From a virus, in IMG/VR virus record IMGVR_UViG_3300007900_000584, positions 1-51,890 of that record: DNA of 51,890 nt; one strand, 5' to 3'. A program made the translations under genes and the position numbers. How positions within the stretch are numbered: position 1 is the stretch's first letter; each line of letters starts with the position of its first letter. The notes beneath the pieces are model-generated. The model did not search any database. It was not told the origin of the DNA and was given only the letters and a program-made list of their open reading frames with translations. Positions 5,381 through 41,969 of the stretch are shown piece after piece.

Positions 5381-5393
5381 TAAAAGTGATATA

Positions 5394-11391: not shown

Positions 11392-13737
11392 ATGATAGAT
11401 AACACTGAAACATATATTCCCCTCCATCAGCACAGTTTTTTTTCGTTATTGGATGGATTATCTTCTCCAAAAGATATTGTGGATCGCTGTGTTGAGTTGG
11501 GATTACCTGCTTGCGGGATAACAGACCATGGGAATATTGCCGCGATGAAAGCATTCTACGATGAATGTAAAAAGGCAAAAATTAAATGTATCTTGGGAGT
11601 GGAATTATATATTTGTGAAGGAAATCCCACTATTAAAAATAATGATAACAATAAGCGTTATCACTTAATTGTATTGGCTAAAAATGATCAGGGAGTCGGA
11701 GATTTAATGGCACTAGTATCGGAAACTAATAAGCCAGAGCACTTCTATAGAAAGCCAAGGATTGATTTGAAAGGTATTGCACGGTTTGCCAAGCGTGGTA
11801 ATTTAATTTTCTTGTCGGCCTGTATTGAGGGCGCGTTACCAGCGTCTTTATTTTCTGATTTCAAAGAAGCTATCATGGCAGGTCGAAACGGCAACGCAGC
11901 AGGTTCGAGAGAATATCTCAAGCCAAACTGGAAAGAGATCGGCAGGGCTATTATTGCGGAGCATGTAGCCATATTTGGGAAAGATAATTACTATTTAGAA
12001 ATACAAATTTCTGGCATGGGGATACAGATAGTCGTAGCAGAATGTCTCCGCGAATTAAGCAAAGAAACTGGAATTCCTGTTGTACCAACGACCGACTCCC
12101 ATTATTGCAGAAAAGAAGATGCTGAAGACCAGAGGCTTCTGTTATATGCAAGTTTACACACGACCAAAGAAGCACAAGATTATAAAATTTCAACTGGTCA
12201 AGATGTCATGGATTTTTTCGTTTCGGATAGCTACTATATCTGGTCTTACAAAGAAATGCGGGAAAAATTTACCGAAGCTGAACTTCAAACCACAGTAGAC
12301 ATAGCCAATCAAATTGAATACTCATCATTAGGTCATAGTCCTTATCTGCCTATCTTTACCAACGACGAGTCAAAGCAACTCGGGCTTAATTCAGACAAAT
12401 ATCTAGAGCATCTCTGCATAGAAGGTGCCAAAACAAAATTATCACATCTGAATCCGACACAAAAGAAAATATATCTAGCGAGACTGCAAGAAGAATTAAT
12501 TGTTATTCAAGAAGCCAATCTTGCAGATTATTTTCTAATTGTCTGGGATGCTTGTCAGTTTGTAGATGAGAATAAGGGACCAAGGGGCAAAGGCCGTGGT
12601 TCTGGTGCTGGGTCATTAGTAAACTATCTAACCGGAATTACAGGTATTGATCCCATCAAATATGGACTTTATTTTAGCCGCTTCTATAATTTAGGCCGTA
12701 ATGTCCTCCCACACTTTGATGTCGGGCAAGTAGACTTTATGTCGTGGGTATCAGACAATTTTGAATTACTCCACACACGCGATGTTGACGTAGAACGCAA
12801 AGCGGTATCTCAACATCTAGCAAAACGAATGAGGCAGCATAAAATCGAATTCACAGATATGATGAGAAAAGAAGTTGAGTGGATTGATGAAAAAAATCCA
12901 AAAATGTGGATATATTTATCTGACATGATTAAAAGAAAGCCCGCAGAAAATCCTTCAAATTCCCATTTGGCATATGGGTTGGGTATGACATTGGCAGGTC
13001 GATATGAACTTGATATAAATCGTGCAGTTAAAACTCACGAAGGCCATATTAGTCTCCCTGATATTGACACTGATATTGGTGTAGTTTTCCGCGATAAAGT
13101 AATAGCATATCTTAAGAAACGATGGGGTGAGAAATATGTAGCCCAAATGATTACTTTCGGAAGACTTCAAGGGAAAGCTGCTCTTAAAGAAGTATTTCGT
13201 GCTCACCCAGATACGGTAAAACATTTAATGAAGGTTAGGGCTCTTAAAGAAGGTAAAGATCATAATGATATTCACATGACCCCTCATGATTTATGCAATA
13301 GTATTACCCAGCATATCCCAGATGAAGCCACCATTGCCGACGAGTTGCGACAAGCGAGAAAAGAGCAGGGTGATGATTATGGAATTTTGCAGTGGGCCGT
13401 TCATAATATCGAATTAGTTCAAGAGGCTTATGAGCGGTTTAAGCCTTTGTTCGACCAAGCTATTAGAATAGAAGGAACAAAAAAGTCACAATCGAAGCAC
13501 GCTGCTGGTGTAGTTATTGCAGATAGGCCAATTGAAGAATTAGTACCTCTTGCATATGACGCAAAGAACAAAGATCGTGTTGTTGGAGTAGAAATGGGTA
13601 ATGCCGAGGCGATGGGATGCGTCAAATTTGATTTTCTTGGAATTGTGGCGCTCGATAAGCTTTGGGAAGCTCAACGATTAATAAATGATGAAACAGAAGA
13701 TGTCGTTTTAGATGAAGCTTTTGTGAATGGTGAATGA
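11392..13737 (+). CDS. dnaE: DNA polymerase III alpha subunit, N-terminal part (PHP and palm)
   Basis: This 781-residue protein is the first part of a C-family replicative polymerase. The PHP domain opens with LHQHSFFSLLDG at 11-22 and GITDHGN near 44. The palm holds D557 and D559 in PDIDTDI and D747 in VKFDFLGI, the three catalytic Asp of the family; KSQSKHAAGVVI lies between. About 120 extra residues (about 437-555) sit between YFSRFYNLGRN and the PDIDTDI strand, where E. coli DnaE has almost none. The protein stops shortly after the palm, and fingers and C-terminal domains are encoded at 26006-27949. Its TGA overlaps the next ATG. Confidence 0.9.
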   Translation: MIDNTETYIPLHQHSFFSLLDGLSSPKDIVDRCVELGLPACGITDHGNIAAMKAFYDECKKAKIKCILGVELYICEGNPTIKNNDNNKRYHLIVLAKNDQGVGDLMALVSETNKPEHFYRKPRIDLKGIARFAKRGNLIFLSACIEGALPASLFSDFKEAIMAGRNGNAAGSREYLKPNWKEIGRAIIAEHVAIFGKDNYYLEIQISGMGIQIVVAECLRELSKETGIPVVPTTDSHYCRKEDAEDQRLLLYASLHTTKEAQDYKISTGQDVMDFFVSDSYYIWSYKEMREKFTEAELQTTVDIANQIEYSSLGHSPYLPIFTNDESKQLGLNSDKYLEHLCIEGAKTKLSHLNPTQKKIYLARLQEELIVIQEANLADYFLIVWDACQFVDENKGPRGKGRGSGAGSLVNYLTGITGIDPIKYGLYFSRFYNLGRNVLPHFDVGQVDFMSWVSDNFELLHTRDVDVERKAVSQHLAKRMRQHKIEFTDMMRKEVEWIDEKNPKMWIYLSDMIKRKPAENPSNSHLAYGLGMTLAGRYELDINRAVKTHEGHISLPDIDTDIGVVFRDKVIAYLKKRWGEKYVAQMITFGRLQGKAALKEVFRAHPDTVKHLMKVRALKEGKDHNDIHMTPHDLCNSITQHIPDEATIADELRQARKEQGDDYGILQWAVHNIELVQEAYERFKPLFDQAIRIEGTKKSQSKHAAGVVIADRPIEELVPLAYDAKNKDRVVGVEMGNAEAMGCVKFDFLGIVALDKLWEAQRLINDETEDVVLDEAFVNGE

Positions 13738-14474
13738 TGCATAATAAAGTAACCCTAATTATAAAAACATTTGAACGGCCACAATGTATTAACCGACTTG
13801 TGTATAGTATAAAAATGATGTATCCCAACCTTCGAGTAATCGTTGCTGATGACAGCCGCGAGTTTCGCCCAATTGCTGGGGTTGAGCACTGGCAAATGCC
13901 TTATGATAGTGGCGTATCTGCTGGTCGCAATTTAGCTTTAAGCAAGGTAGACACCCCATATGTTGTTACTCTTGACGACGATTTTTGTTTCTGTTCTAGA
14001 ACTAAATTAGAAAAATGGTTTGAAATACTAGAAGATAATACAGAAATTGACATCATAGGCTCAAATGTAGATGGTCACCCCAATTATCACAGTTCATTGC
14101 ATATAGAAAATGATGCACTAATTTTTAGACCAATTCCACGAGGACGACTCGGCAATTTTAATTTATGGGATATTGTTCTTCAGTTTTGGATGGGCCGCAC
14201 TGACAAGATCAAAGAAGTTGGTGGCTGGGATGACCGATTTAAAACATGTGATCATATCCCATTTTTCTGTCGTGCTTTAGGAAGATTAAATATTGCTTAT
14301 ACTTCAGATGTCTCTGTTGGACATATGCCAATTAAAAGTCAAGCTTATTTTAACCATAGGAATAAAAGGATGCAATATTATTTGAATATGTTAATGGATG
14401 ATTTAAAGGTAAACCAAGTAACTGATAGGAATGGAAGAATAATTTATACACGAGATGGAAATACTTTGCAATAA
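13734..14474 (+). CDS. GT2-fold glycosyltransferase (B4GALNT-like)
   Basis: This 246-residue GT-A enzyme opens the island between the polymerase parts. KVTLIIKTFERP starts the Rossmann strand, VIVADDS and the SAGRNLALSKV helix follow, and VTLDDDF at about 81-87 is the metal-binding DXD site. These three motifs in this order recall the GalNAc/galactosyltransferases of B4GALNT type. It should transfer an activated sugar to an unknown acceptor. ATG 13734 overlaps the polymerase stop (ATGA), so translation is coupled. It lacks membrane segments. Donor and acceptor are unknown. Confidence 0.8.
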   Translation: MMHNKVTLIIKTFERPQCINRLVYSIKMMYPNLRVIVADDSREFRPIAGVEHWQMPYDSGVSAGRNLALSKVDTPYVVTLDDDFCFCSRTKLEKWFEILEDNTEIDIIGSNVDGHPNYHSSLHIENDALIFRPIPRGRLGNFNLWDIVLQFWMGRTDKIKEVGGWDDRFKTCDHIPFFCRALGRLNIAYTSDVSVGHMPIKSQAYFNHRNKRMQYYLNMLMDDLKVNQVTDRNGRIIYTRDGNTLQ

Positions 14475-14492
14475 AAAACAGAAAGGATATTA

Positions 14493-15134
14493 ATTGGAAA
14501 AGCACTAGAACTTACTGGTAAAAAATTTGGACGATTATTTGTTATTGGAAAGATTGGGAAAAATAATCGAGGTAACTATTTATGGTTATGCATATGTGAT
14601 TGCGGGAATGAAACAGTAGTAGTTGGAACTAATTTGAAAAGTGGCAATACAAAAAGTTGTAAATGTTTACAAAAGGATATAAATATAAAACAATCTACGC
14701 TTCATGGACATCGTAGTGTTGGCAATACTACTGAGACATATAGGTCGTGGCAAATGATGAAAAATAGGTGTCTTAATCGAAAAGATGTTCAATGGAAAGA
14801 TTATGGTGGTCGTGGAATCAAAGTTTGCAAAAGATGGATGAAATTTGAAAATTTCCTCGAAGATATGGGAGAAAGACCAAAGGGTTGTTCTTTGGATAGA
14901 AAAAATAATAATAAAAACTATTGTAAATCTAATTGTCGGTGGACTACACCAAAACAACAAGCCAGAAATAAAAGAAATAATTATTTCATCAATTTAAAGG
15001 GTAAACAAATAACACTAGCTGAATTGGCAGAGCAAACAGGAATAAATCGTTCTACACTAAAATACAGGATTGATAAATTAAAATGGCCAATAGAAAAAGC
15101 TATAACGAAGCCGGTGCAACGACATGACAAATAA
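14493..15134 (+). CDS. HNH-family homing-type endonuclease with apparent ATT start (copy B)
   Basis: The frame encodes the full family: LTGKKFGRLFVIG, Cys knuckle WLCICDC ... SCKCL, YGGRGIKVC, CSLDRKNNNKNY ... NCRWTT ... ARNKRNN and a C-terminal HTH-like end. The first ATG/GTG/TTG in frame (TTG 14634) would cut off 47 conserved residues. Read from ATT 14493 the product is 213 residues, against 212 and 210 for the copies at 6839 and 31843, and AGAAAGGA lies five bases upstream. The same frame is closed by the preceding gene's TAA (14472-14474). So initiation at ATT, read-through, or a dead gene with a lost start are the options. Confidence 0.65.
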   Translation: MGKALELTGKKFGRLFVIGKIGKNNRGNYLWLCICDCGNETVVVGTNLKSGNTKSCKCLQKDINIKQSTLHGHRSVGNTTETYRSWQMMKNRCLNRKDVQWKDYGGRGIKVCKRWMKFENFLEDMGERPKGCSLDRKNNNKNYCKSNCRWTTPKQQARNKRNNYFINLKGKQITLAELAEQTGINRSTLKYRIDKLKWPIEKAITKPVQRHDK

Positions 15135-15930
15135 AAATACACTAGGATGTTTGCCCTGGGTTGGGGAATTTGGTTGGGAGTTGTGTTGGTGGAATCCCAT
15201 GGCAAGATATTATGCCAAGCAATATGATCATACAACCGTAGCAGCACCAGCGAGTTCTCGCTATCTGTATGAATTTGCAGATACTTTTATTCCACTCCAA
15301 ACCAAGGGCATTACCTTTTGGAGAGGTGAATTAAAGGGTGATCCTCCAGTTATTTCGGCAGACTCATATCTTAATCCAGCAAAAGAATTTGCCAAATATC
15401 CGAACGAGCCTGAGAGAGTTTCGACTCCAAGAAAGTGGAGATCATTAGCTCCTGAAAATCCGATTTATCAAGCAGATATTTTGTGTGCTTTTAGGTCGGT
15501 TAAATATATTAAAAACAGGAAGATTCCAGGGAAGGAATATCCTGTGGATAAATGCCAAGACTTAGTTAGTATGTTAATAGATTTAGGATTAACCGTAGCG
15601 TGTTATGGAGGAACAGACAATTACTGTCCAAATGGTGCAATAGATTTAAGGGGTCAGCCATTGGAAGGACAATGTAGTGCAATTGTTGCGGCTAAGTGCG
15701 TGGTTGGACCAAGTAGTGGACCTATTCATCTTGCAAGTTTGTGTGGGTGTCCACATGTAACCTGGATTGCATCAATTCATCATACATTAGAAAAACGATA
15801 CACCAAACTTTGGAATCCTTTTGAAACTCCGGTACGATTTATTGACCACAGTAGGATTCCACAACCAAGTGAGGTTATACGACATATTATGGATTTAGTA
15901 AACATAACTAAAAGAAAGGAATTGATATGA
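15124..15930 (+). CDS. GT9-like (GT-B) glycosyltransferase
   Basis: This 268-residue protein has an N-terminal GEFGWELCWWNPMARYYA motif, the acceptor-side loop of a GT-B fold, and a C-terminal VVGPSSGPIHLASLCGCPHVTW that matches the donor-site signature of GT9 heptosyltransferase-type enzymes (GxxSGPxHLA). It likely adds a heptose-like or other sugar to a growing glycan. ATG 15124 overlaps the HNH stop by 11 bases; its own stop overlaps the next ATG (ATGA). No membrane segment is present. The donor sugar is inferred from family only. Confidence 0.75.
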   Translation: MTNKNTLGCLPWVGEFGWELCWWNPMARYYAKQYDHTTVAAPASSRYLYEFADTFIPLQTKGITFWRGELKGDPPVISADSYLNPAKEFAKYPNEPERVSTPRKWRSLAPENPIYQADILCAFRSVKYIKNRKIPGKEYPVDKCQDLVSMLIDLGLTVACYGGTDNYCPNGAIDLRGQPLEGQCSAIVAAKCVVGPSSGPIHLASLCGCPHVTWIASIHHTLEKRYTKLWNPFETPVRFIDHSRIPQPSEVIRHIMDLVNITKRKELI

Positions 15931-17561
15931 TTAAATTGCCCTCTCATTATTCTCATGATAGATGCTATTGGGCGCATATGGTTACATTAAGATGCAATGG
16001 AAAATGTCCCTTTTGTATTTTAAATGGAAGGGGACAAAGAATAGCACAGCAAGAAATGAGCGGAAAAGAAATTTTAGATTGGTGGAATAATGTAAAGCAT
16101 AAGCCAGGACAAAAATTGTCTATTATTGGGGGGGAGCCCACTTTACATCCAGATATTGTTGAAATCATTAACAATTTAAAAAATTACAACATTACAATTA
16201 CTACAAACTGTAAGGGTCCGTTTTACAAAGATGCGAATTTCAATAAGAAATTTAAAGTTCATTCGACTTCAACTCTTAGAATAAATACTACTTTTCATCC
16301 CCATCATATCACAGCCGAGGAATATATAAGAGTTATAAAGAAGTGGAGAGAAACTTCCTATTTTGTAGATCAAACATCTTTTGTATATGCGCCAGGGGTG
16401 ATAGAACAATATGGAGATGCGATTAGAAAGGTTAGTGCTCATATTGCTATGACCGAAGGCTCATTCTTGGGATTTTATGATAACAAAAATGGTTTTCATG
16501 CTCCTTTTGATCCAAAAAACTTAATGCCAGATGAAAGTTATCACGACATAAAAAGAGTGGGTGAAAGATGTGGATTAACAGATTTCGATGCTTACAGGCA
16601 TATATGTGGACAGGCAACGGGGAAAGAGGCCAAATGTTGGCATCCCAGAAGAAGTCTAATCATCGGACCAAATGGCGGTTATTATCATTGTCACTATAAG
16701 ATGTATTATGATATTGATCCAGTTTGTAACGTTAAGGATTTTCGGCCTGTGCCAGATAAAGCTGTCTCATGTCGTCATTATGGCCTGTGTAATTGGTGTG
16801 ATGTTCCGAGGGTTGGATGTGCTAAAAACAAAACAGCGAAACCCCAAGTATTAAGTAAGCTTTATGATAAAAAAGAGAGAGAACTGCCCGAAATCAATGG
16901 GTTATTTACCAATATTCAAAATTTTGGGGAACAACACTCCCTAGAGTGTAACAAGTTGAAGTGGTTTGAATATGCTTATAGTCTATTATATTCAGGACAC
17001 AGAATCAGAGGGAAAACCCTGGATGTTGGTAGTGCCCGATCTGTATTCCCATATTACCTTGCTCACAAGGGGTATGACGTAACCACAATAGATGTAGCTG
17101 AGGGACCATATCGGGACGAGATTGGTAAAAGGTTTGGTGTTAAAAGTGTTATCGGAGACCTAAGAGAGTTTCAACCAGAATTGGAAGGTCAATTTGATTT
17201 TATTACTAACCTAAGCGTTATTGAACACATTGATAATGATACAAAAGCCGTCATAAACCTTGTTCGTTATCTAAAACCCGGTGGAGTCATGGCAATTTCT
17301 ACTGATTTTTATGATAAATATATAGAGTATCCAGATGCGAATCGAAAGATTGTTACTGACAGGCCCGTTGGGTCACACACTGATTCCCGAGTTTATACGC
17401 CAGAAACATTTGAACAACGAATCTTGCAACCTCTGGAAGTGCTCGGAGTAGAAAGGGTGGGTGTTACCAATTTTAATAATGTAGATATCTCCGACAGGAC
17501 AGAAAGGGCCGTTAGAGGACTTTATACTTTCGGAATTTCCATTGTTAGGAGAAAAATATGA
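15927..17561 (+). CDS. Radical SAM/SPASM-like protein fused to a SAM methyltransferase
   Basis: This 544-residue protein has two enzymes in one chain. The radical SAM cluster motif is CNGKCPFC near 24-31 (CX3CX2C), followed by IIGGEPTLHPDI, the SAM-binding GGE motif. Residues 228-310 hold many Cys (CGQATGKEAKCW, YHCHYKMY, CRHYGLCNWC, GCAKN), as in a SPASM-like auxiliary cluster region. From about 365 there is a class I methyltransferase: TLDVGSARSVFPYYL, TIDVAEG, DFITNLSVIEHI. It may modify a sugar or peptide by radical chemistry and methylation. The substrate is unknown. Confidence 0.82.
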   Translation: MIKLPSHYSHDRCYWAHMVTLRCNGKCPFCILNGRGQRIAQQEMSGKEILDWWNNVKHKPGQKLSIIGGEPTLHPDIVEIINNLKNYNITITTNCKGPFYKDANFNKKFKVHSTSTLRINTTFHPHHITAEEYIRVIKKWRETSYFVDQTSFVYAPGVIEQYGDAIRKVSAHIAMTEGSFLGFYDNKNGFHAPFDPKNLMPDESYHDIKRVGERCGLTDFDAYRHICGQATGKEAKCWHPRRSLIIGPNGGYYHCHYKMYYDIDPVCNVKDFRPVPDKAVSCRHYGLCNWCDVPRVGCAKNKTAKPQVLSKLYDKKERELPEINGLFTNIQNFGEQHSLECNKLKWFEYAYSLLYSGHRIRGKTLDVGSARSVFPYYLAHKGYDVTTIDVAEGPYRDEIGKRFGVKSVIGDLREFQPELEGQFDFITNLSVIEHIDNDTKAVINLVRYLKPGGVMAISTDFYDKYIEYPDANRKIVTDRPVGSHTDSRVYTPETFEQRILQPLEVLGVERVGVTNFNNVDISDRTERAVRGLYTFGISIVRRKI

Positions 17562-18535
17562 AAAATAAATTAGCATTTAATCATGCCAGAGTCTTAGTCA
17601 TAGGCGATCTCATGCTTGATGTCTATCGGTATGGAAGTACGTCTCGCATTTCACCAGAAGCCCCCGTACCCGTTGTCAAAGTATCTAGAGAAAGTATTGC
17701 TGCTGGTGGTGCCGCTAATGTAGCAGTTAATTTACAAAAATTAGGATGTTTCGTAGAACTTTTAGGGTACATAGGCGAGGACAACAATGGACGTCAACTG
17801 AGGGCGGAATTGCAACAACATGGGATTATACACACCAATCTGGTGGAGTCATTTTCCCACACTATATCTAAAACCCGTATTATTGTGGATGATCAATATA
17901 CTCTAAGATGTGACGATGATTCCACGATGAGAACACGGATACACAGAAAACATCACGAAGGCGAGTTGGTGCGAGCGTTATCAGAATTAGGCGATAAACA
18001 ACGATTTGATATTGTTATTGTATCAGATTATGCTAAAGGAACAATTACAGATACAATTATGGATACTATAAAGGCATCTTTTCCTTGTAAGATTTTATGT
18101 GATATAAAACCAACTAATGCCCATCTGTTTAACGATGTATTTTGTGTCGTACCAAATCTTCAAGAAGCACTTGAACTTGTGAATGCGCAAAACAATTATA
18201 CATATTCAACATTGGCCAGAGAAATCAAGAATAGATTTGGTTTACAGGCAGTAGTTATTACTTTGTCTGAACATGGTATTTTTTTGCTAGATCAGCATGA
18301 CAATACATATTCTTTTGAAGCCCATGTTGTTGATTATAACCAACGCAATGCCGTATTGGATGTTACAGGTGCAGGGGATACGGTTATCAGTGCATTGGCA
18401 GCATGTTTGGCGATCGGGTATGATTTAAAAGAAAGTGTTAGACTAAGTAACCTGGCGGCTGGTGTTGTCGTTGGTAAAACAGGAACGGCTGTGTGTTCTG
18501 CTAAGGAATTACAGAATGAAAACCTACGGATGTAG
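17558..18535 (+). CDS. hldE: PfkB sugar kinase, HldE/RfaE kinase-domain-like
   Basis: This 325-residue kinase follows the D-glycero-beta-D-manno-heptose-7-phosphate kinase domain of HldE closely: VLVIGDLMLDVYRYG, TSRISPEAPVPVVKV (residues about 28-42), GGAANVAVNLQKLG, and the catalytic DVTGAGDTVIS near 268-278. Length equals the HldE kinase domain; the C-terminal nucleotidyltransferase domain is absent. It should phosphorylate heptose-7-phosphate at C1, a step in making nucleotide-heptose. The adenylyl or guanylyl transfer must come from elsewhere. ATG 17558 overlaps the previous stop. Family is clear; exact sugar is inferred. Confidence 0.82.
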   Translation: MKNKLAFNHARVLVIGDLMLDVYRYGSTSRISPEAPVPVVKVSRESIAAGGAANVAVNLQKLGCFVELLGYIGEDNNGRQLRAELQQHGIIHTNLVESFSHTISKTRIIVDDQYTLRCDDDSTMRTRIHRKHHEGELVRALSELGDKQRFDIVIVSDYAKGTITDTIMDTIKASFPCKILCDIKPTNAHLFNDVFCVVPNLQEALELVNAQNNYTYSTLAREIKNRFGLQAVVITLSEHGIFLLDQHDNTYSFEAHVVDYNQRNAVLDVTGAGDTVISALAACLAIGYDLKESVRLSNLAAGVVVGKTGTAVCSAKELQNENLRM

Positions 18536-19199
18536 TGGCACATTGGGGGATACATATGTTACTCTGTGTATTCTTTATCATGTTGCCAAACAAGAGCCGA
18601 TTATATGTAAGCATTACACAATACATAGAAATTGGCACGGATTAATTAAACAAATTTACTCATTGATGCCAAACATACAAGTCGAATTTGTAAGTCAAAG
18701 GGATACTACAAATCCAAGAATATATTCATCTTTTGTACCCCATAGGAAATTCGGTATGACCTTATCTTCCACCGACGATTGGTGTATTTTCCCGAAGTTT
18801 ATTTTTCCTGAACTATCGCGTTTACCAGAACATTATGTCGTATTAAATCCACAATCTGGCCGACCAGACCAGGGTCGAATGTTAAATAAAAGAATAATTG
18901 ATAGAATAGTTAAAGATTCACAGTATCCAGTTGTTGTTCTAGGTACAAGTCAAATATCGAAACAAATAAAAGGTAGTAATGTTATTAATTTAACCAATCA
19001 AATCTCTTTGCTAGAAGCTATGGGTGTGATTAGCCGAGCCCAGCATGTAACAACATTCCAGGGATTAATGAGTCTTGTTGCCGCAAGTCAGCGGGTACAA
19101 AGTAGTGTGTACATACGCAATATTGGAGACCCGTGTTATACTGAACGAGTTGCACCAGAGTGGATACCATATCACAAGATACAGGAGGAAAAACCATGA
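18516..19199 (+). CDS. Divergent GT9-like glycosyltransferase
   Basis: From ATG 18516 (after CTAAGGAATTACAGA, inside the kinase tail) it has 227 residues. CSGTLGDTYVTLCILYHVA at the N-terminus resembles the GD-containing first loop of GT9 enzymes, and SLLEAMGVISRAQHVTTFQGLMSLVAA matches the LxExxxxIxxAxxxxTxxGxxxLA helix-loop of the donor domain. The protein is short for a two-domain GT-B enzyme (usually over 300), so it may have a minimal fold or act with a partner. ATGA overlap joins it to the following methyltransferase. Confidence 0.6.
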   Translation: MKTYGCSGTLGDTYVTLCILYHVAKQEPIICKHYTIHRNWHGLIKQIYSLMPNIQVEFVSQRDTTNPRIYSSFVPHRKFGMTLSSTDDWCIFPKFIFPELSRLPEHYVVLNPQSGRPDQGRMLNKRIIDRIVKDSQYPVVVLGTSQISKQIKGSNVINLTNQISLLEAMGVISRAQHVTTFQGLMSLVAASQRVQSSVYIRNIGDPCYTERVAPEWIPYHKIQEEKP

Positions 19200-19762: not shown

Positions 19763-20607
19763 AACCCAAAATCATTGGATTAATTGGTGTGTGGTATGCT
19801 GAAAAATGGATTGCAGCAGCTTTAGAGCAGGCATTACAATATTGTGATGAAGTAATAGTGGCAATTGGTGCCAATTCTAAATTTCTTGCCAAATTAGAAG
19901 ATAAGACACAAGAAATAGTATCTAAGTATCAAGATAGGATTACATTAATTAAGGCATCAACAGGACAAGCATATTCTCAAAGCAGAGCCGATACATTAAA
20001 TAGGATGTTGGCAGTTAGTAAATTTCGAAAAGTAGGAAATTGGGTATGGATATTAGATGCTGATGAATTTTATTTTGATTGTGCTTATCAAAAAATACGT
20101 GAAGCAATTGATTCTGGCTTATACCACCACATACGTGTAGAAGAAAAATTCTTTTTTATTAATATGACTAGATATTTATTAAACAGTCATGGTAGATTAT
20201 TCCGCATATCACAGCCAAATAACCAATTTCAACCAACACAACATTGGAATGGTAATATGACAAAATGTTTTATACTAAGACGAGACACAGCCCAACAAGG
20301 TATGTTCCACTACAGCCTTTTAACCGATGTAAGATATCGTCGCCTTATGTGGGAAACAGAACATCAATATCAACAACCACGTAAGCTCCAGTGGCTATCA
20401 GAAGTATACATTCCGTATGAATTAGATAATGAAGAAATTTGGATAGCTAAAAATCAAAAGCTTTTTGGATGTAAATCACCTTTTCTTGCACCGCTAGTAG
20501 AAGTCGAACCTGATAAAAATGGTAAACTTTTTGTTTACAATGGTAAACATCCTCCACATATAGAAACTACAGAACTAACTACAATCAAAGATTTCCGAAA
20601 GATATAA
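19759..20607 (+). CDS. GT2-like glycosyltransferase
   Basis: This 282-residue protein begins KIIGLIGVWYAEKWIAAALEQALQYCDEVIVAIGANS, the start of a GT-A fold, and has VWILDADEFYF at about 96-106 carrying the DXD metal site. The region SQSRADTLNRML before it is typical for the GT2 family working without a membrane anchor. Start ATG 19759 overlaps the methyltransferase stop. It belongs to the coupled gene string and likely adds one residue of the same glycan. Donor and acceptor are not predictable. Confidence 0.75.
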   Translation: MKPKIIGLIGVWYAEKWIAAALEQALQYCDEVIVAIGANSKFLAKLEDKTQEIVSKYQDRITLIKASTGQAYSQSRADTLNRMLAVSKFRKVGNWVWILDADEFYFDCAYQKIREAIDSGLYHHIRVEEKFFFINMTRYLLNSHGRLFRISQPNNQFQPTQHWNGNMTKCFILRRDTAQQGMFHYSLLTDVRYRRLMWETEHQYQQPRKLQWLSEVYIPYELDNEEIWIAKNQKLFGCKSPFLAPLVEVEPDKNGKLFVYNGKHPPHIETTELTTIKDFRKI

Positions 20608-20610
20608 GCA

Positions 20611-21369
20611 ATGTCCAAAAAGGCACTAATTTTATATTGGCACGGGTTAGGAGACGTTATTCTTCTGACACCGATTTTGCGATATCTTTACAAACAAGGA
20701 TATACTATTCACTTAATGTGTCGATCGGAGGTTTGTAATTCTAATTTACTAGGAAATTGCCAATATGTAAGCAATTTGATCAATGTTGCCAATCCTTGGC
20801 GGTCTAGCGTGGGATTCGATTGTCAAAAGAAAATAAATGTTGTTAAATTTAAACAATTATCCAAAAGATATAATTTATCTGTTTGTTGTTTACACGAATC
20901 TATAATACAGGGATGTAAGATTGCAACCAACTGGAGTGAATGTGGTTTAACAGTCAACAATAATCAACTAGAAGTTTTTATACCCCCAGATACTGAAGCA
21001 AGGGCGATGGAACTTATTGCGTATCGCTATCCAGATGGGTATATTCACAGACACACACAAATAGAATTTCACACAACTCATAATTGGGATTGTACAGATT
21101 GGATTAAAAAAAATCTACCTGACTTACCAATTATTGATACAGGGTTGGGTGGTGACTATTATTGTATTGATCCAGACATTAATTTCTCCTTTGTTTTAGC
21201 TCGGGAGGCAAAACATAGAGTATTATCTTCATCAGTCTTTGTTCATGCGTGTGAGGCTATGGGAGTAAAAATGGATGTAATCAACTACGGCAGACCAGAT
21301 CGGAAAGTGTGGCCCAAAAACCAAAGTTTAGTGGTAAAAATTCGTGAAGCTGAAAGGTGGATAAAATGA
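20611..21369 (+). CDS. GT9-like (heptosyltransferase-type) glycosyltransferase
   Basis: This 252-residue protein opens with ALILYWHGLGDVILLTPILRYLYKQGY, the classic GD-x-IL-xTP loop of ADP-heptose:LPS heptosyltransferases. The C-terminal half keeps SSSVFVHACEAMGVKMDVIN in place of the SGPxHLAxAxGxP donor loop, so it is divergent there. With the HldE-like kinase in the same island, a heptose-like donor is plausible. Start ATG 20611 follows ATAAGCA with no strong ribosome binding site. It overlaps the next gene by four bases. Confidence 0.72.
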   Translation: MSKKALILYWHGLGDVILLTPILRYLYKQGYTIHLMCRSEVCNSNLLGNCQYVSNLINVANPWRSSVGFDCQKKINVVKFKQLSKRYNLSVCCLHESIIQGCKIATNWSECGLTVNNNQLEVFIPPDTEARAMELIAYRYPDGYIHRHTQIEFHTTHNWDCTDWIKKNLPDLPIIDTGLGGDYYCIDPDINFSFVLAREAKHRVLSSSVFVHACEAMGVKMDVINYGRPDRKVWPKNQSLVVKIREAERWIK

Positions 21370-21953
21370 GTTATCATCCAAACTACTTTCAGCAAGGTGT
21401 CGCAGTTAGAAATGATTGTCAACAGAGACTTGATGCGATTAAAGGACATGTAAAAGGTGGTAGTTTATTAGACGTAGGATGTAGCGAGGGGTTCTATTCT
21501 TTCGGCCTTGCGGATCGTTGTGGACCCATCTTGGCTATAGACAAAGAATTGTCATTAGTACAAAAATGCTGGAAAATAAAAAAAACCTATAAGGTTAACA
21601 TCGATTTCCAACATATGGGGGTGGATAGATTACTGCGATCGACAGAAACGTGGGATACTTGTTTATATCTGAGTATCCATCATCATATTGTAGCTCAGTT
21701 GGGAATGGAAATAGCGGGAGATATTTTGAGAACCCTGTCTCGGAAATGTAGTTGTATGTTCTTTGATATGGGACAAAAGAACGAACAGAATTGTACTATG
21801 CACAAATGGTGGCAATTATTGCCACGAAATATAGATCAAGAAGTATGGTTGCGAAAATATTTAAAAGCCAACACAATATATACAAATATTCAGTTTATCG
21901 GCAGTTCTCGGATACATAATGTCCGGAGGTTATTGTGGAAACTGACCAAGTAG
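21366..21953 (+). CDS. Class I SAM-dependent methyltransferase
   Basis: From ATG 21366 (after AAAGGTGGATAAA; a GTG at 21357 is less likely) it has 195 residues. SLLDVGCSEGFYSFGLADRCG gives motif I, ILAIDKELS motif II, and TCLYLSIHHHI motif IV. It is the second of three plain methyltransferases in the island. The tail is basic (RRLLWKLTK). The target may be a sugar hydroxyl or a lipid-like carrier; nothing in the sequence decides this. Confidence 0.78.
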   Translation: MSYHPNYFQQGVAVRNDCQQRLDAIKGHVKGGSLLDVGCSEGFYSFGLADRCGPILAIDKELSLVQKCWKIKKTYKVNIDFQHMGVDRLLRSTETWDTCLYLSIHHHIVAQLGMEIAGDILRTLSRKCSCMFFDMGQKNEQNCTMHKWWQLLPRNIDQEVWLRKYLKANTIYTNIQFIGSSRIHNVRRLLWKLTK

Positions 21954-22555
21954 TTTTTGACAACAGGGTTTATGTTGTGCGACAAAAATTCTATCGCACT
22001 ATCGGCAGCTTCCAGCAACGGTTGGTTTCGGCCAGGGGAGACAAGGTAGAACGCAGAAGAACCTTTTATGTGGTAGAACGTGATCAGCAATTGTTCTGGG
22101 TCAAAGAATATACAGAACCCGCCCCCTATCACGATATCTATTACGAATTCACAGAGACTCAAAGATTGTATTCCGCAACTTATGTGGGACGAAACGAGAT
22201 ACAAACGGTTCAGATGTTTGGCGTCGAAAATGGCAGACTACTTATGGAATACTGTGATGGCTATGTCAAACTTCACGAAATGTCGTTGACACCACCGCAG
22301 CAAGCTACGGTTGGTCAATTGATAGCAAAATGGATTCAAGAACATCCAGAGGTGCATAATTACGACATGTGCGGGAATAACATACTAATCAAAATCAATG
22401 GCGGAATATCTATTAGATTGATAGATTTTGAGTATTCCATCAAGATGAGCCGCCAGCGGTGGGAACATACACGTAATGCCAAATGTTGGTATAACAAAGC
22501 TGGAACGATACCATTCTTAGGGTCTGGTTACGACAGTCGCAAGAAAGGAAAATGA
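21935..22555 (+). CDS. Small protein-kinase-fold protein (LPS-kinase-like)
   Basis: This 206-residue protein starts at GTG 21935 after CCGGAGGTTATT. VHNYDMCGNNILI near 141-153 has the HxxDxxxxN catalytic loop, followed by IRLIDFEYS with DFE in the place of DFG. FWVKEY near 50 may supply the ATP-anchoring Lys. Small kinases of this type (WaaP/RfaP, KdkA) phosphorylate sugars of the LPS core. In a glycan island next to GT9 genes, sugar phosphorylation is the best guess; a protein substrate cannot be ruled out. Confidence 0.65.
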   Translation: METDQVVFDNRVYVVRQKFYRTIGSFQQRLVSARGDKVERRRTFYVVERDQQLFWVKEYTEPAPYHDIYYEFTETQRLYSATYVGRNEIQTVQMFGVENGRLLMEYCDGYVKLHEMSLTPPQQATVGQLIAKWIQEHPEVHNYDMCGNNILIKINGGISIRLIDFEYSIKMSRQRWEHTRNAKCWYNKAGTIPFLGSGYDSRKKGK

Positions 22556-22556
22556 G

Positions 22557-23255
22557 ATGAAGTGTAGATTCTGTGAAGGCGACCTATCTGGTCCAGTAGT
22601 TGACCAATTCTTCGCGTGCAAGGTCTGTCAAGTACATTGGAATACTGAGGTACCGTCCAAAGCTGTTTTGCAACAATCATTGGCTAATATGATGCTTACT
22701 GCCTGTACTAATCCTAAAACCAGAAAATGTCGTCTTGATCAAGCTTTCGAGCAGTTAGACCTTATCGAACCGCACGTTACTACAGGTAAGCTTTACGATG
22801 TAGGAGCAGCAGCCGGTTTTGTTATGCACGTTGCCCAATCGAAGGGTTGGAAGGTATATGGTAATGAATTGAGTATGCGGGCGGTTGCGTGGGCGAAACA
22901 GCATTATGGTCTTGATATTTTTCATGGGTTTTTAGAAGATGATCCAGCCGCAATTGATAATCAATTTGATCTGGTTGTATTTTGGAACACATTAGAACAC
23001 GTAAGAAACCCACTTGAAGAAATGAGCCAGGCGACGAGTATGTTGAAACCAAATGGTCATATCCATATCGAAGTACCCATTAAGAATTCGCTAGAATTGA
23101 CTCGTTTTAGTCCAGCAGGACACATGACAGAATTTGAATACAAAGCATTGGACATACTCCGAGATAGGTGTGGCCTAGAAGAAGTGGCTAAATGGAAACT
23201 GACAGGTAACCAAGGACAACGATATGTTCGTGTATTATGGCAGAAACCACACTAA
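22557..23255 (+). CDS. Methyltransferase with N-terminal zinc ribbon
   Basis: This 232-residue protein starts with a ribbon (CRFC at 3-6, CKVCQ at 22-26) followed by a class I methyltransferase: KLYDVGAAAGFVMHVA near 80-95, VYGNELS, LVVFWNTLEHV, and MLKPNGHIHIEVP. The order zinc ribbon then methyltransferase is common in sugar methyltransferases (Methyltransf_23 type). Start ATG 22557 follows GAAAGGAAAATGAG. It probably methylates an island sugar; the substrate is unknown. Confidence 0.8.
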   Translation: MKCRFCEGDLSGPVVDQFFACKVCQVHWNTEVPSKAVLQQSLANMMLTACTNPKTRKCRLDQAFEQLDLIEPHVTTGKLYDVGAAAGFVMHVAQSKGWKVYGNELSMRAVAWAKQHYGLDIFHGFLEDDPAAIDNQFDLVVFWNTLEHVRNPLEEMSQATSMLKPNGHIHIEVPIKNSLELTRFSPAGHMTEFEYKALDILRDRCGLEEVAKWKLTGNQGQRYVRVLWQKPH

Positions 23256-23276
23256 CGAATAGAAAGGTTTAATTCC

Positions 23277-24119
23277 ATGTCTCAAACAATTATTGTAGGA
23301 AGTATGAATGGTAAAATATATACCTACGATACAGCGACACAAAAACTAAAGATATATTGTCAGCCAGACAACAGAGGGGTGATGGGACTTGCCAGATATG
23401 AAAATCACCTCTTTGCTTCATCCAGGGAATTAATAGTAAGGCAAGAATACCCACACATTAATACTAAGTCTATACGTAAAAAATTTCAAATAGATTCTCC
23501 ACAATTTCACCAGTTATTGTTGCATCACAAGAAATTATACATAACGTGTACTGCAATTAATGAAATATGGGTTTTTGATTATGATTTGACCCTATTAGAA
23601 AGAAAACGTATTGCGCCGCCCAACCGAAATAGTCCTGTCGCACTTAAGAGAAACTATAATCATGCTAATAGTATATGTTATCACAATGGATTATTTTATG
23701 TGGGACTTAACTGGTTAACTTCTACACAGTATGGGAAAAGTGGGGTGTGCGTTTTAAATCAAGACCTTCAAGAACAAAATCGTTTCGAATATGGGTGGGA
23801 GTCACATGGATTTACTTTTGTAGATAACAAACCGTATGCATTATGTGCAACCTCCGGGACTGACAAGAATATATCACATCCACGTCGTGCTGGTTTAATG
23901 GTTGATGGGCAGTTGGTTTTTGAACATCCTACAGATATATTTTGCAAAGCATTTATTGTAGATAAAGATTATATTTATGTAGTCGGTGGCGATGTGGCAA
24001 TCAGAGATCAAAGAAATGATGCTAACGGGGTAATATATACTTTAGATAGAAATTTCCAATTATTAAATACGGTTAAGTTTATAAATGCAGGACAACTTTG
24101 TGGAATAGCAATAATATGA
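23277..24119 (+). CDS. Beta-propeller protein of unknown function
   Basis: This 280-residue protein has repeating strand pairs such as GSMNGKIYTYDTATQKL, NHLFASSRELIVR, KKLYITCTAINEIWVFD, NGLFYVGLNWLTS, KPYALCATSG and DYIYVVGGDVAIRD, which look like blades of a five- to seven-bladed propeller. There is no signal peptide. Start ATG 23277 follows AGAAAGGTTTAATTCC. In a sugar island it could be a lyase-like or scaffold protein; no catalytic residues can be assigned. Similar propellers occur in glycan loci as unknown proteins. Confidence 0.6.
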   Translation: MSQTIIVGSMNGKIYTYDTATQKLKIYCQPDNRGVMGLARYENHLFASSRELIVRQEYPHINTKSIRKKFQIDSPQFHQLLLHHKKLYITCTAINEIWVFDYDLTLLERKRIAPPNRNSPVALKRNYNHANSICYHNGLFYVGLNWLTSTQYGKSGVCVLNQDLQEQNRFEYGWESHGFTFVDNKPYALCATSGTDKNISHPRRAGLMVDGQLVFEHPTDIFCKAFIVDKDYIYVVGGDVAIRDQRNDANGVIYTLDRNFQLLNTVKFINAGQLCGIAII

Positions 24120-25030
24120 AAGTTGTATATATTGACAAATTTAATTATTTTTTTTCAAGTGGTAATTATATAACAGCCGCCCTTAATAATATTGGAATAC
24201 AGGTAGTAAAAGTTCCTCTAGAAACCCCTTTAGATAAAATTAAACAAATTATAATAAGTCATAAATCAGACTTTGTATTATATGGAAAAGGTGCAAACTA
24301 TTTTGAGTCATTAATCCCATGGCTGCGTCAACGGAATATACTAGCTGTACACTGGAGTTTTGATCGACTTTTTTATCTAGACAGACCACAAACTATTATC
24401 AATAGAAGAAAAATCTACTTATCCAACTTTGTATTTACCACAGATGGTGGATGCAATCAACAATGGAAGAAAGAATTTGGAGTTGATCATATTACATTAC
24501 GGCAGGGTTTACATGCGCCAGATCATCAATGGGTTGATCCAACACCAAAAGATTTTGATATTATTTTTATAGGAAGTGTTTACAATACATACAGAAAAAA
24601 TCTCGTCAATTTTCTAACTAAAATTTATGGAAGTAGATTTAAAGTTTTTGGAGCCTCTGAAAATCCAAAAGACCAAATTCGGGGAATGGATTTAAATGTG
24701 TTATTGAGATCGGTAAAGATAGCCGTTGGGGATTCATTGCCTGGAGATTATTATTGGAGTAATCGTTTATATGAACAGCGCGGTCGTGGAGGATTCCTAT
24801 TACATCCCGAAACAGTTGGTATGGATCAGGAATTCGAAATTGGAAAAGAGTTGATTTTATTTCCAAGACACGACATGGACGCACTAAGGAAGACAATAGA
24901 CTATTATGTGGAGCACGACGAAAAAAGAGAGCGGATCAGACGATGCGGTTTTGATCGGTGTCCAACGTATGATGATCGTGTGTGTTTGATGTTGCGGCAT
25001 GTACGCGAACAAACAGGGAAAAGCATATGA
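24116..25030 (+). CDS. CgeB-like glycosyltransferase
   Basis: This 304-residue GT-B protein starts at ATG 24116 (ATGA overlap with the propeller). The C-terminal half is typical of the CgeB/GT4-like group: DIIFIGSVYNTYRKNLVNFL, then YWSNRLYEQRGRGGFLLHP with the donor-binding Glu region, ELILFPRHDMDALRKTIDYYV and the final ERIRRCG helix. It should use a nucleotide sugar; the acceptor is unknown. It is soluble and overlaps the next gene by four bases. Confidence 0.75.
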   Translation: MKVVYIDKFNYFFSSGNYITAALNNIGIQVVKVPLETPLDKIKQIIISHKSDFVLYGKGANYFESLIPWLRQRNILAVHWSFDRLFYLDRPQTIINRRKIYLSNFVFTTDGGCNQQWKKEFGVDHITLRQGLHAPDHQWVDPTPKDFDIIFIGSVYNTYRKNLVNFLTKIYGSRFKVFGASENPKDQIRGMDLNVLLRSVKIAVGDSLPGDYYWSNRLYEQRGRGGFLLHPETVGMDQEFEIGKELILFPRHDMDALRKTIDYYVEHDEKRERIRRCGFDRCPTYDDRVCLMLRHVREQTGKSI

Positions 25031-25971
25031 AAATACGTATCTTATCAATTCATAGGTCTACTCCGTTACGAATGGACGCTATTATTAAAACACTTATAAG
25101 AAATGGCCATTCTCTGGTAGACGAACTAGGTGGCGATAGCGAAGCAGATGTATGGTTTGTAGATTGTATATGGCCTCACAAAATAAAACAGTCAATTATT
25201 GAAGAAATGATCGCTTTTAAGGGGCAAATAATATTAATATCACTAGGGGATTTGAATATATTCAAGCTTGATGGATTACCAAATGAATTAATAAACAAGA
25301 TCACAGCTTTTGTTAAGATACAATGGGATCATGATTTAACCATTTATGACCCAAGAATAGTGGCTAAGATGATTACAGTCCACCCCTTCTTAATCGGTGG
25401 TTTGCCACAACCAATAATCAAAAAACCGAAAGTATGTTTCTTTGGATTGCCGACGGGGGCAGAAGATGCTAAAAATAACCTAAGAATACAAGCCTGTCGT
25501 ATTCTCAAAGATCAGCCATGGTTTGTCGGCGGTATTGTTGGACAGGAACCAGGAGCAAACCCAAGAGATATAGCAGGAATAGAAATTGGTCACCGTCCAC
25601 GAAATTTTTATCTCAACACAATTAATCAATCTTTAGTATCTCTATGTATGCCTGGCAATAGTCCATTGACTTATCGTATGTTTGAAAGTTTAGGTGTCGG
25701 TTCGGCTGTTGTCTCATGTTCTCTGGAAGATGTTGGGTGGCTTAATTATATGGAGCCAGGTGTTCACTACTTTGTTGTCAAGCCTGATTTATCAGACCTA
25801 TTAGAAGTTTGCAAACGAGCTATTAATAATAACGCACAAGCCCATAAAATTGCAGCAGCGGGATATGCCTTATATCAGGATTATTATGCTATACAGCAAG
25901 ATGGTGGCTTGTCTGATAATATTTGGCAAGATATTAAAGCTCAATTTATTAATATTGGCATAGAATTTTAA
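25027..25971 (+). CDS. GT-B-like glycosyltransferase, last gene of the island
   Basis: From ATG 25027 (ATGA overlap) it has 314 residues. The C-terminal half TYRMFESLGVGSAVVSCSLEDVGWLNYMEP, then LSDLLEVCKRAINNN, is the usual donor-domain pattern of GT4/CgeB-like enzymes (E in the FESLGVG helix). The N-terminal half is divergent. It is the last gene before the second polymerase part, and 34 bases separate it from that gene, the widest gap in the island. Confidence 0.68.
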   Translation: MKIRILSIHRSTPLRMDAIIKTLIRNGHSLVDELGGDSEADVWFVDCIWPHKIKQSIIEEMIAFKGQIILISLGDLNIFKLDGLPNELINKITAFVKIQWDHDLTIYDPRIVAKMITVHPFLIGGLPQPIIKKPKVCFFGLPTGAEDAKNNLRIQACRILKDQPWFVGGIVGQEPGANPRDIAGIEIGHRPRNFYLNTINQSLVSLCMPGNSPLTYRMFESLGVGSAVVSCSLEDVGWLNYMEPGVHYFVVKPDLSDLLEVCKRAINNNAQAHKIAAAGYALYQDYYAIQQDGGLSDNIWQDIKAQFINIGIEF

Positions 25972-25993
25972 GAAACAACAATTAAGTTTATAG

Positions 25994-26006
25994 GTATAAT
26001 AAGATA
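25994..26006 (+). promoter_or_regulatory. Candidate -10 type promoter for the second polymerase gene
   Basis: The 13-base string GTATAATAAGATA occurs here and again at 27978-27990, both in short intergenic gaps. It contains a perfect -10 hexamer TATAAT at 25995-26000. No good TTGACA box is found 16-18 bases upstream. A start of transcription 6 bases past the hexamer would fall on the A of ATG 26006, giving a leaderless message, and no convincing ribosome binding site precedes that ATG. This is inference from sequence only. Confidence 0.4.
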
Positions 26007-27949
26007 TGATTAAATTTGCTAAATGTCAATGTCAAGTTGAGAAGGGTAATTTTAATATTAATGAAATTTCTCTTAACTGCCCCGCAGTTTGGTCCCTCAT
26101 ATCAAGTGGTCATACAGTCGGAGTTTTCCAGCTTGAAAAGAGTCTGGGTCAAGAGTGGGCGAAAAGAGTATTACCCGATAGTGTTGAAGAGCTTGCCGCA
26201 TTAATATCATTGATTCGACCAGGACCCCTTGAGGCTGGTTTAAGCCAGACCTTCGTAGATGTTAAGTTTGGCCGGAAACAGCCGTCTTATTTACATCCAT
26301 CTTTAAAGCCTATTTTAGAATCTACATATGCCCAAATGACGTACCAAGAACAAGCACTGCGCATTGCTACCGATCTTGCTGGATTTAATCCTGATGAAGC
26401 GGATACGCTTAGGTCGGCAATCGGTAAAAAATTGGCAGAAAAAATGGCATCTTTGAAGAATAAATTTATAACCGGATGTCAAAAACACAGTAATATTGAT
26501 CAAGAGGTAGCTGAAGAAATATTTGGGTGGATTGAGAAGTGTCAACGCTATTCCTTCAACTTGTCGCACGCAATTTCTTATGCAATGATTTCTTATCAAA
26601 CATGTTGGTTAAAGTGTCACTTTCCTCAAGAATTTTTCACAAGTTATTTGACTTATTCTCAATATAAGAGTGATCCCAAAGAAGAAATTTATAAATTGGT
26701 ACAAGATGCTAGACTATTCGGTGTTGACATTCTCCCCCCAGATATTAGGCGTGGTAATATCCACTTTCAAATGATCAAAAAGGGCGTAGCATTTGGCTTG
26801 GCGCACATTAGGGGTGTTGGAACGTCAGCTATCCAAAAGATCGTCACAGCAGCCACAGGAACGCCAGGAATCGACCTTCTAACCAAGGCTGTACACCAAA
26901 TAAGCGATGCTGGCTTCGCCACTGTACTACCCGATATTCCTGGTGTAGTAGATGAAATATCAAAACCAAAAATTAATCATAATTGTTTAAAAACATGGGC
27001 GGATTTTCTGGCAGCGGTTCCAGACTTCCATAGAAACGTAGGTATTGCCCTAATTAAGTCTGGTGCTTGTGATTGTTACGATATAGGACGTAACGAAATG
27101 GTGCGCGAGCTTGAAGTGATATTGGGAACTAGTGATTATGATTCAACTGGTAAGAAAATTGCTGTTAAGGGACTAACAAGTAAAGAGAAAATTTACTTTT
27201 TTAATGAATTACAACAAGGTGAGATGACTACGCCGGAAATTCTGTTGCAGATGGCTCAACCTCCGGGAAGCAAGACGAAAAAGATCAGTGTGATGTCTAA
27301 AACAGAATTAGTTAAAGCAGCGACAGAATATTTAGATCAGGTTGATACCGCTTTTAACGGGATAGTTGATGGTGACAGCAAATTTGTATATACATCTTCT
27401 GACGAAAAAGAAGTCTGGTTAAATAATTTAAAGAGTCGCACCAAAAAAGATATTATGGAATTAATGTTGCAAAATGGTTACAAAGATATAGTGGTTAAGC
27501 CGCCATGTTCGAGTGACGCCCGACGCAAAATTGTGGGGTCCAAAGCTGCATTGCTGGAAGATTCGCTGACGGATACTAATATGGCTAATGCGGTCGCAGA
27601 AAAGTATTTTCTCGGCATAGCTCTATCTTGTTCCGAAGTAGACGATGCGGATGGTAGTTTGGCTACGCATACATGTTTAGAAATTGCCAAAGCACCGAAC
27701 AATGAAGCCATTACGGCTTGCGTAATTATTGATAAAGTTAGGCATACGAAAACTAAACGAGGGCGCAATCCAGGCCAATCCATGGCCTTTTTGACGATTT
27801 CGGATTCAACATATTCAATTGATGCTGTAGTATTTCCTGATGTGTTTGGGAAACTGAAAGCATTTTGTAAGGAAGATTTAATTGGCTTGATTTACGGAGA
27901 GAAGAAAAATGGTAGTTTTATTGTTCGAGACATACAAAAATTAATGTGA
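26006..27949 (+). CDS. dnaE: DNA polymerase III alpha subunit, C-terminal part (fingers, HhH, OB)
   Basis: This 647-residue protein continues the polymerase ended at 13737. After about 25 unmatched residues it enters the DnaE fingers: VWSLISSGHTVGVFQLEKS, LAALISLIRPGPLEAG, MTYQEQALRIATDLAGF, and YSFNLSHAISYAMISYQTCWLK. A helix-hairpin-helix (HIRGVGTSAIQKIV) follows near 270, and an OB fold (VIIDKVRHTK ... AFLTISD ... AVVFPDVF) ends the chain. It has no catalytic Asp triad of its own, so it needs the N-terminal protein. Start ATG 26006. The two parts total 1428 residues against about 1160 for E. coli DnaE. Confidence 0.9.
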   Translation: MIKFAKCQCQVEKGNFNINEISLNCPAVWSLISSGHTVGVFQLEKSLGQEWAKRVLPDSVEELAALISLIRPGPLEAGLSQTFVDVKFGRKQPSYLHPSLKPILESTYAQMTYQEQALRIATDLAGFNPDEADTLRSAIGKKLAEKMASLKNKFITGCQKHSNIDQEVAEEIFGWIEKCQRYSFNLSHAISYAMISYQTCWLKCHFPQEFFTSYLTYSQYKSDPKEEIYKLVQDARLFGVDILPPDIRRGNIHFQMIKKGVAFGLAHIRGVGTSAIQKIVTAATGTPGIDLLTKAVHQISDAGFATVLPDIPGVVDEISKPKINHNCLKTWADFLAAVPDFHRNVGIALIKSGACDCYDIGRNEMVRELEVILGTSDYDSTGKKIAVKGLTSKEKIYFFNELQQGEMTTPEILLQMAQPPGSKTKKISVMSKTELVKAATEYLDQVDTAFNGIVDGDSKFVYTSSDEKEVWLNNLKSRTKKDIMELMLQNGYKDIVVKPPCSSDARRKIVGSKAALLEDSLTDTNMANAVAEKYFLGIALSCSEVDDADGSLATHTCLEIAKAPNNEAITACVIIDKVRHTKTKRGRNPGQSMAFLTISDSTYSIDAVVFPDVFGKLKAFCKEDLIGLIYGEKKNGSFIVRDIQKLM

Positions 27950-27977
27950 TTTTGTGGAACAAGTATGAGACTTTGAT

Positions 27978-27990
27978 GTATAATAAGATA
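27978..27990 (+). promoter_or_regulatory. Candidate -10 type promoter ahead of the SSB/sigma gene group
   Basis: This is the second copy of the 13-mer GTATAATAAGATA, with TATAAT at 27979-27984. It lies in the 78-base gap after the polymerase gene, and would give a leader of about 35 bases that contains the AAAAGGAAATT ribosome binding site of the gene at 28028. No -35 TTGACA is seen. The identical string before two consecutive genes is the main support. Confidence 0.45.
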
Positions 27991-28447: not shown

Positions 28448-28554
28448 GATTTTTTATTGGAATTGGGAAAGAAGATATCTTTTTGACTTACAACGATCAT
28501 GATTTATGTAAAGATGTACAGGAAAAGTTGGAACCAAAGGCAAAACGATTTTGA
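28444..28554 (+). CDS. Possible 36-residue ORF
   Basis: A short open frame from TTG 28444 (overlapping the previous TGA as TTGA) to TGA 28552-28554 fills most of the 120-base gap before ssb. The residues are polar (IGIGKEDIFLTYNDHDLCKDV) with a basic end. The ribosome binding site AAAGG is only one base from the start, which argues against translation. It is kept as a weak candidate because genes here otherwise leave little space. Confidence 0.2.
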   Translation: MRFFIGIGKEDIFLTYNDHDLCKDVQEKLEPKAKRF

Positions 28555-28568
28555 GAAAGGTGAAGAAA

Positions 28569-41879: not shown

Positions 41880-41911
41880 GTCTTTCACCTCCTTTCGTTA
41901 ATTTATCTACT

Positions 41912-41919: not shown

Positions 41920-41969
41920 CACCAATGGTTGAAAATCGAATATTTAATTTAACTTTATTTTTTAAAACG

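Follow-up and report, generated by a model that had tools for sequence, protein, structure and literature searches.

The viral record IMGVR_UViG_3300007900_000584 encodes a replicative C-family DNA polymerase (DnaE) in two separate genes, here called dnaE-N and dnaE-C, with a 12 kb gap occupied mainly by sugar- and methylation-related genes between them, which raises the question of how this polymerase came to be divided and what the genes in the gap had to do with it. The analyzed stretch, hereafter the window, is the entire record (51,890 bp), a fragment of a phage genome. Based on the comparison with related viral records, the locus is best read (probability about 0.8) as a two-gene replicase of ancient origin whose gap later became a cassette site, and whose two chains most likely bind each other non-covalently.

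Two genes covering one DnaE

Sequences matching the PHP domain (Pfam, E=1e-37) and the DNA_pol3_alpha palm (E=1e-62) were found in dnaE-N, and the catalytic residues D557, D559 and D747 were invariant in an alignment of 21 sequences. The fingers (E=7e-45) and HHH_6 (E=3e-11) were matched by dnaE-C, whose OB region fell below the Pfam cut-off; weak by Pfam, this region is consistent with the fold search, in which about 650 columns, including the C-terminal region, were aligned with DnaE. In BLAST searches, dnaE-N corresponded to residues 6-573 of E. coli DnaE, and dnaE-C to residues 584-852 and 990-1053; the two genes jointly cover one DnaE, and the break is in the palm-fingers linker. AlphaFold2 models of both halves (confidence, pLDDT, 87 for dnaE-N and 83 for dnaE-C) matched the Taq, M. 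tuberculosis and E. coli DnaE structures over almost their full length in a fold search of the PDB. The domain set and order were those of the C family, but the polymerase was not a single chain in the window or in any relative with both ends present.

An earlier sequence-only reading of the window had placed PHP and palm with the three aspartates in one gene and fingers, HhH and OB in the other, and its coordinates, frames and domains agreed with Pfam and the alignments. The break that it located between the KFDFLG palm strand and the GVFQLE fingers strand was recovered both in the E. coli mapping (573/584) and at the junctions of relatives, and its view of the halves as complementary parts of a real replicative DnaE was borne out by Pfam, by the same mapping and by the purifying selection described below.

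Conservation of the two halves

Relatives of both proteins (50-79% identical) were detected on 17 further viral records of 28-181 kb. Sixteen of these carried both genes, ordered and oriented as in the window, broken at the same point and separated by 5.0-10.6 kb; in G016 the two genes lay at opposite contig ends, and G011 held dnaE-C only, 2.4 kb from its contig start. Since the 16 close relatives lie on separate contigs and share break and order, an assembly join of two contigs, or chance, was ruled out. Counted from the first residue of the KFDFLG-type motif, every N protein ended after 24-42 residues; the C proteins all began with M-I-x-F-x-x-C-x-C...LxCPA.W..(GVFQLE) or a close variant. 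Nonsynonymous and synonymous differences (pN 0.15-0.23 and pS 0.78-0.91, window against relatives, both halves) indicated strong purifying selection on both genes. No PolA, PolB or second DnaE was found in 11 other records of 113-181 kb, each of which had one DnaE only, and PF00136 (PolB) was absent from 12 records.

These data bear on the idea that N, C or both have decayed and no longer act as a polymerase, the phage being replicated by its host. An in-frame stop inside the N match of G009 and G017, and the loss of PHP ligands in L081, would fit such a decay. However, catalytic and PHP residues are invariant in the window's lineage, selection is strong, both halves occur in every long relative, and genes for helicase, primase, RecA and single-stranded DNA-binding protein (SSB) surround the polymerase genes, and decay is scarcely credible.

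Age of the split

Distant relatives were obtained from profile-based scans, and loci with both palm and fingers were taken; 77 distinct DnaE loci were split at the palm-fingers place, and others were fused. One palm-plus-fingers phylogeny covered 122 taxa, including the DnaEs of E. coli and of metagenome-assembled genomes (MAGs; Shimodaira-Hasegawa, SH, support); another was built with IQ-TREE from 54 taxa (ultrafast bootstrap, UFBoot). The window and 48 other split sequences formed one clade in the 122-taxon tree (SH 1.0), and the split clade had a UFBoot value of 93 in the 54-taxon tree. The split DnaEs of L181/L183/L184 (97) and of phages P1201, phiT1 and G fell outside this clade in the 54-taxon tree, indicating that this linker was split on more than one occasion. 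As for the clade of the window, the phylogeny shows that its split goes back to a single event in the common ancestor of a large phage group, before glycan genes were present.

A DnaQ-like exonuclease was encoded between the halves in 61 of the 104 loci with a gap; the window's lineage had none there. It was recognized by DEDDh motifs (by eye), by Pfam (RNase_T, 1e-9) and by PHROG ("DNA polymerase exonuclease subunit"), and was usually the sole sizeable gene, in a gap of ~1 kb. Most of the clade keeps one proofreading exonuclease gene in the gap; the gene was either ancestral and then lost in the window's sub-branch, or gained in the sister branch. Palm gene, exonuclease and fingers gene together make up a three-gene replicase module in a large phage group. 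On L226 (NZWA01000066.1), a contig assigned to a Flavobacteriales MAG, a split DnaE with a gap of ~1 kb was also observed; either the contig is mis-binned or the exonuclease-type phages may infect Bacteroidota. Bacteroides phage DAC19 was considered as an isolate relative and rejected, as only its exonuclease matches, with no DnaE nearby.

Among the neighbours of the window's branch, the two hits in L081 were separated by 141 bp, with overlapping dnaE open reading frames (ORFs); L080 had a small gap with macro-domain-like and uracil-DNA-glycosylase-like ORFs, and L083 one with nucleotide-kinase-like and intein-like ORFs (all by eye). These loci bear on the proposal, made in the sequence-only reading, that the glycan island, by inserting into a single intact dnaE in the window's lineage, divided the gene. 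The position of the island would suit this, as its start overlaps the dnaE-N stop codon (13734 against 13737) and its end lies shortly upstream of dnaE-C. Nevertheless, the same break exists outside the lineage without any cassette, in L102 and L091 with an exonuclease in ~1 kb as well as in L081 and L080. Together with the trees, these cassette-free relatives show that the polymerase was already two genes before the sugar genes came: the split is ancestral to a larger clade with exonuclease-only or near-empty gaps. The trees contradict the proposed insertion, which is very improbable.

Glycan cassettes in the gap

Among the 15 ORFs of the window's gap, 10 had a Pfam match to glycosyltransferases (GT), methyltransferases, radical-SAM proteins or PfkB, one encoded an HNH endonuclease, and the rest had no or weak family assignments. 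The glycan island of the sequence-only reading was therefore recovered as to its content; it is not confined to the gap, though, since glycosyltransferase genes continue beyond dnaE-C (30121-31833, 32472-33647 and 34755-35774). When the ORFs in the gaps of the window and of its close relatives were clustered, four gene sets emerged, with no family common to all (Table 1). Record G013, with a type D cassette, nests within polymerases of type B (support 95 in each of the N and C trees), and the window, of type A, groups with G002, of type B, in both trees alike. These placements indicate that cassettes move while N and C stay, and, as judged from the trees, at least one cassette has evidently been exchanged with the polymerase halves left in place. 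The exonuclease-free gap of the window's lineage holds whole glycan/methyltransferase sets that pass between phages, probably via recombination in the conserved flanking polymerase halves.

The HNH gene of the gap raises the alternative that a free-standing homing endonuclease fractured dnaE. Homologues of this gene occur in the gaps of G001, G008, G013, G014, L084 and L177, and homing or HNH endonucleases are found between the DnaE pieces of phage G and of Arthrobacter phage Wollypog; most gaps, however, have no HNH gene, and an origin of this kind is unlikely. The window carries two further HNH-type genes, at 6836-7477 (helicase-primase interval) and at 29577-30134 (past SSB). Three such genes per 52 kb make one in a 12 kb gap approximately the background rate, and an enrichment of HNH genes in the gap was rejected.

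Table 1. Coordinates of the features described in the text; positions are those of the window unless another locus is named.
Feature	Location	Strand	Description	Basis
RecA/UvsX-like recombinase	2117..3148	+		Pfam RecA 2e-25
DnaB-like helicase	5361..6839	+		Pfam
TOPRIM primase	7420..8637	+		Pfam
PD-(D/E)XK nuclease	9639..10586	+	upstream of dnaE-N	Pfam
dnaE-N	11392..13737	+	PHP + palm/thumb of C-family DNA polymerase, 781 aa	Pfam, alignments, AlphaFold2, PDB fold matches
Variable cassette, type A	13734..25971	+	15 ORFs, mainly glycosyltransferases, methyltransferases, radical SAM, PfkB sugar kinase	ORFs, Pfam, cassette comparison
HNH endonuclease gene	14634..15134	+	inside the gap	PHROG_3377 E=4e-51
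Promoter-like leader of dnaE-C	25958..26005	+	GAAACA-N17-TATAAT-5 nt-ATG (TATAAT 25995-26000)	16 records, 13 distinct sequences
dnaE-C	26006..27949	+	fingers + HhH + OB region, 647 aa, N-terminal CxC...C extension	Pfam, alignments, AlphaFold2, PDB fold matches, Cys count
Second copy of leader element	27948..27985	+	directly after dnaE-C	
SSB	28551..28988	+	downstream of dnaE-C	Pfam SSB 7e-23
Gap exonuclease, examples	L102:4560-5252; L091:9151-9918; L082:8251-8946; ~58 more loci		exactly between palm and fingers genes	
Cassette type A	window, G001, G007-G009, G015		GT2, GT1, radical SAM, PfkB, methyltransferases	
Cassette type B	G002-G004, G010, G014		KbaZ-like, cupin isomerase, TylF methyltransferase, capsule-type GT	
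Cassette type C	G005, G006, G012		GT/methyltransferase set	
Cassette type D	G013, G017, L149		GT/methyltransferase set	

Leader and cysteine extension of dnaE-C

The 45 bp before dnaE-C were conserved in 13 distinct sequences despite unrelated upstream genes, with a consensus of a GTGGAACA-like box, ~17 nt, a perfect TATAAT and an ATG 4-5 nt further. A TATAAT within 20 nt upstream was found for none of 173 cassette genes, and a generic sigma-70 scan of the leader region gave scores no higher than those of shuffled sequences. The element of ~45 bp is lineage-specific (0-6 copies per genome at no more than one mismatch), and it occurs once more behind dnaE-C in the window, L006, L007 and L018. 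It looks like a candidate promoter for a leaderless or near-leaderless message, in which case the expression of dnaE-C need not depend on the cassette.

The protein itself starts with a CxC motif and a third cysteine (C7, C9 and C25), present in 18/18 sequences of the window's lineage and in 46/50 of the exonuclease type. The motif was absent from L081, from the independent splits and from all 75 fused DnaEs that could be parsed (20 further sequences were unparsable). Speculatively, it may be a metal-binding site or belong to the interface between the subunits.

Assembly of the two chains and proofreading

The proposed enzyme would form by non-covalent assembly of N, contributing PHP and palm with the catalytic aspartates, and C, contributing fingers, HhH and OB, into an active polymerase. 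An alternative is that the halves are, or once were, covalently rejoined, by a split intein or by an intron spliced in trans or in cis. Other sites of these genes often carry inteins (in N at C75; in C after LRPGPLE, after LRK and between SFNK and SHAV), the gap of L083 holds a free-standing, degenerate intein-like ORF, and the DnaE pieces of phage G abut exactly (E. coli 551/552), where an intron has been reported (PMC7824862). By contrast, the junction sequences of 17 N and 14 C proteins showed no intein motif, either where N ends or where C begins, in agreement with the sequence-only reading, which saw no intein at the break, and dnaE-C possesses a conserved start, extension and leader of its own. 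Group I and II introns were not detected by Rfam in the window and three relatives, a weak negative, as the phage G control was negative too. Rejoining of the chains appears quite improbable. The inteins observed were carried by L073, L074, L072, L077 and L078 (records G013, G014, G012, G016 and G017), none at the palm-fingers break. The ORF of L083 (L083:9425-9976), directly upstream of dnaE-C, resembles by eye the intein found between SFNK and SHAVSY in G014 and G016, but lacks the terminal Asn, suggesting a degenerated intein that lies outside its gene.

Besides this small chance of joining at the RNA or protein level, three points weigh against a two-gene replicase of non-covalently bound chains. 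N and C distances were correlated (r=0.94; 0.85 without outgroups; Mantel p=0.0002), a result that is expected for partners and equally for plain co-inheritance and shared descent. Because the window is a 51.9-kb fragment, only its relatives speak against a further polymerase in this particular phage. Finally, the box of the putative promoter stands 4-5 nt from the start codon.

As regards proofreading, the nine PHP metal ligands of dnaE-N (H12, H14, D21, H46, E71, H91, C144, D235 and H237) make up an HHDHEHCDH set, the one described for active PHP domains of DnaE, that is complete in the window and its lineage. An RNase_T exonuclease was found in only two of the 12 records (G001 and G008), and no bacterial beta-clamp domain in any of the 12. 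In M. tuberculosis DnaE1, the PHP domain proofreads. With the ligands intact and an exonuclease rare, the known biology of DnaE1 makes it a reasonable inference that the PHP site of the window's lineage could proofread in place of the missing exonuclease. A pairing of PHP loss with the exonuclease was considered and rejected: the exonuclease clade mostly retains the site, with Cys replaced by His, and there is no clear trade-off.

A wider interpretation can be offered only tentatively, at less than even odds, namely that a deep phage clade possesses an obligately heteromeric C-family polymerase, formed by a palm subunit and a fingers subunit that bears a derived Cys/metal motif, commonly with an exonuclease gene in between, and that in one branch the polymerase genes are fixed recombination anchors for glycan cassettes, which would be swapped without disturbing the replisome. 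If the chains assemble, this would be a natural two-subunit palm/fingers replicase kept through deep divergence (to about 31-38% identity), and a system for asking how C-family fingers are held and how proofreading by PHP compares with that by a gap-encoded exonuclease. The gap shows, moreover, that two essential genes can border a site at which glycan genes are exchanged, and phages may be able to swap surface or DNA-modification traits in this way.

Genomic context

Genes for RecA, DnaB, primase and PD-(D/E)XK nuclease precede dnaE-N, and SSB follows dnaE-C, which places the cassette within a replication module. The minus strand at 41244-51793 carries large genes (up to 1092 aa); five minus-strand proteins scanned against PHROG gave no match, and the largest had none in INPHARED either. 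A Terminase_6C search for packaging genes was negative. INPHARED contained no isolate close to the window, all DnaE matches being below 60% identity.

Comparison with known split polymerases

Split polymerase III (PolIII) alpha subunits are already known as a kind, and the description of the locus as unusual in the sequence-only reading holds only in part, given the literature, the same split in isolates P1201 and phiT1, and the nearby cut in phage G. Within the open-access literature searched, which most subscription papers lie outside, a deep split clade, an exonuclease between the halves, the Cys motif and an exchange of glycan cassettes in the gap were not found.

A split minimal PolIII alpha, in two distant genes expected to reassemble, was described in group 2.2 of the T4-like jumbo phages (Iyer et al. 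2021, PMC7824862). That enzyme comprises only catalytic and template-binding parts and coexists with PolB, whereas the polymerase of the window has PHP, HhH and OB, and neither PolA nor PolB was found in its relatives. In cyanobacteria, DnaE is likewise encoded by two genes but joined by trans-splicing intein halves, which are absent from the N and C junctions of the window's group. Two DnaE genes, as in the window, are annotated in Microbacterium cluster EF (noted in PMC7302621), Arthrobacter phage Wollypog, Rhodococcus phage Trina and Cellulophaga phage phi13:1; in these, however, the cut lies in the N-terminal half or the palm, and the genes are adjacent or have small genes and an HNH gene between them.

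Bacillus phage G (L307, 239245-250008), whose gp339 was the top viral fold match of dnaE-C, has its DnaE in three genes (gp329, gp331 and gp339) rather than two. Like the window, it has unrelated genes, over ~5 kb, between gp331 and gp339; it differs in its cuts, at about E. coli 400/415 and at 551/552, and in the homing endonuclease in between. Introns were reported in its polymerase gene (PMC7824862), and an intein-like insert was observed in gp329.

The DnaEs of Corynebacterium phage P1201 (gp59/gp58) and Rossellomorea phage phiT1 (gp20/gp18) are encoded by two genes divided at the same palm-fingers linker as in the window, at E. coli 586/589 and 574/584, respectively. They differ in that the genes overlap or have one 49-aa ORF between them, with no cassette, in the lack of the CxC...C motif and in their position outside the window's clade.

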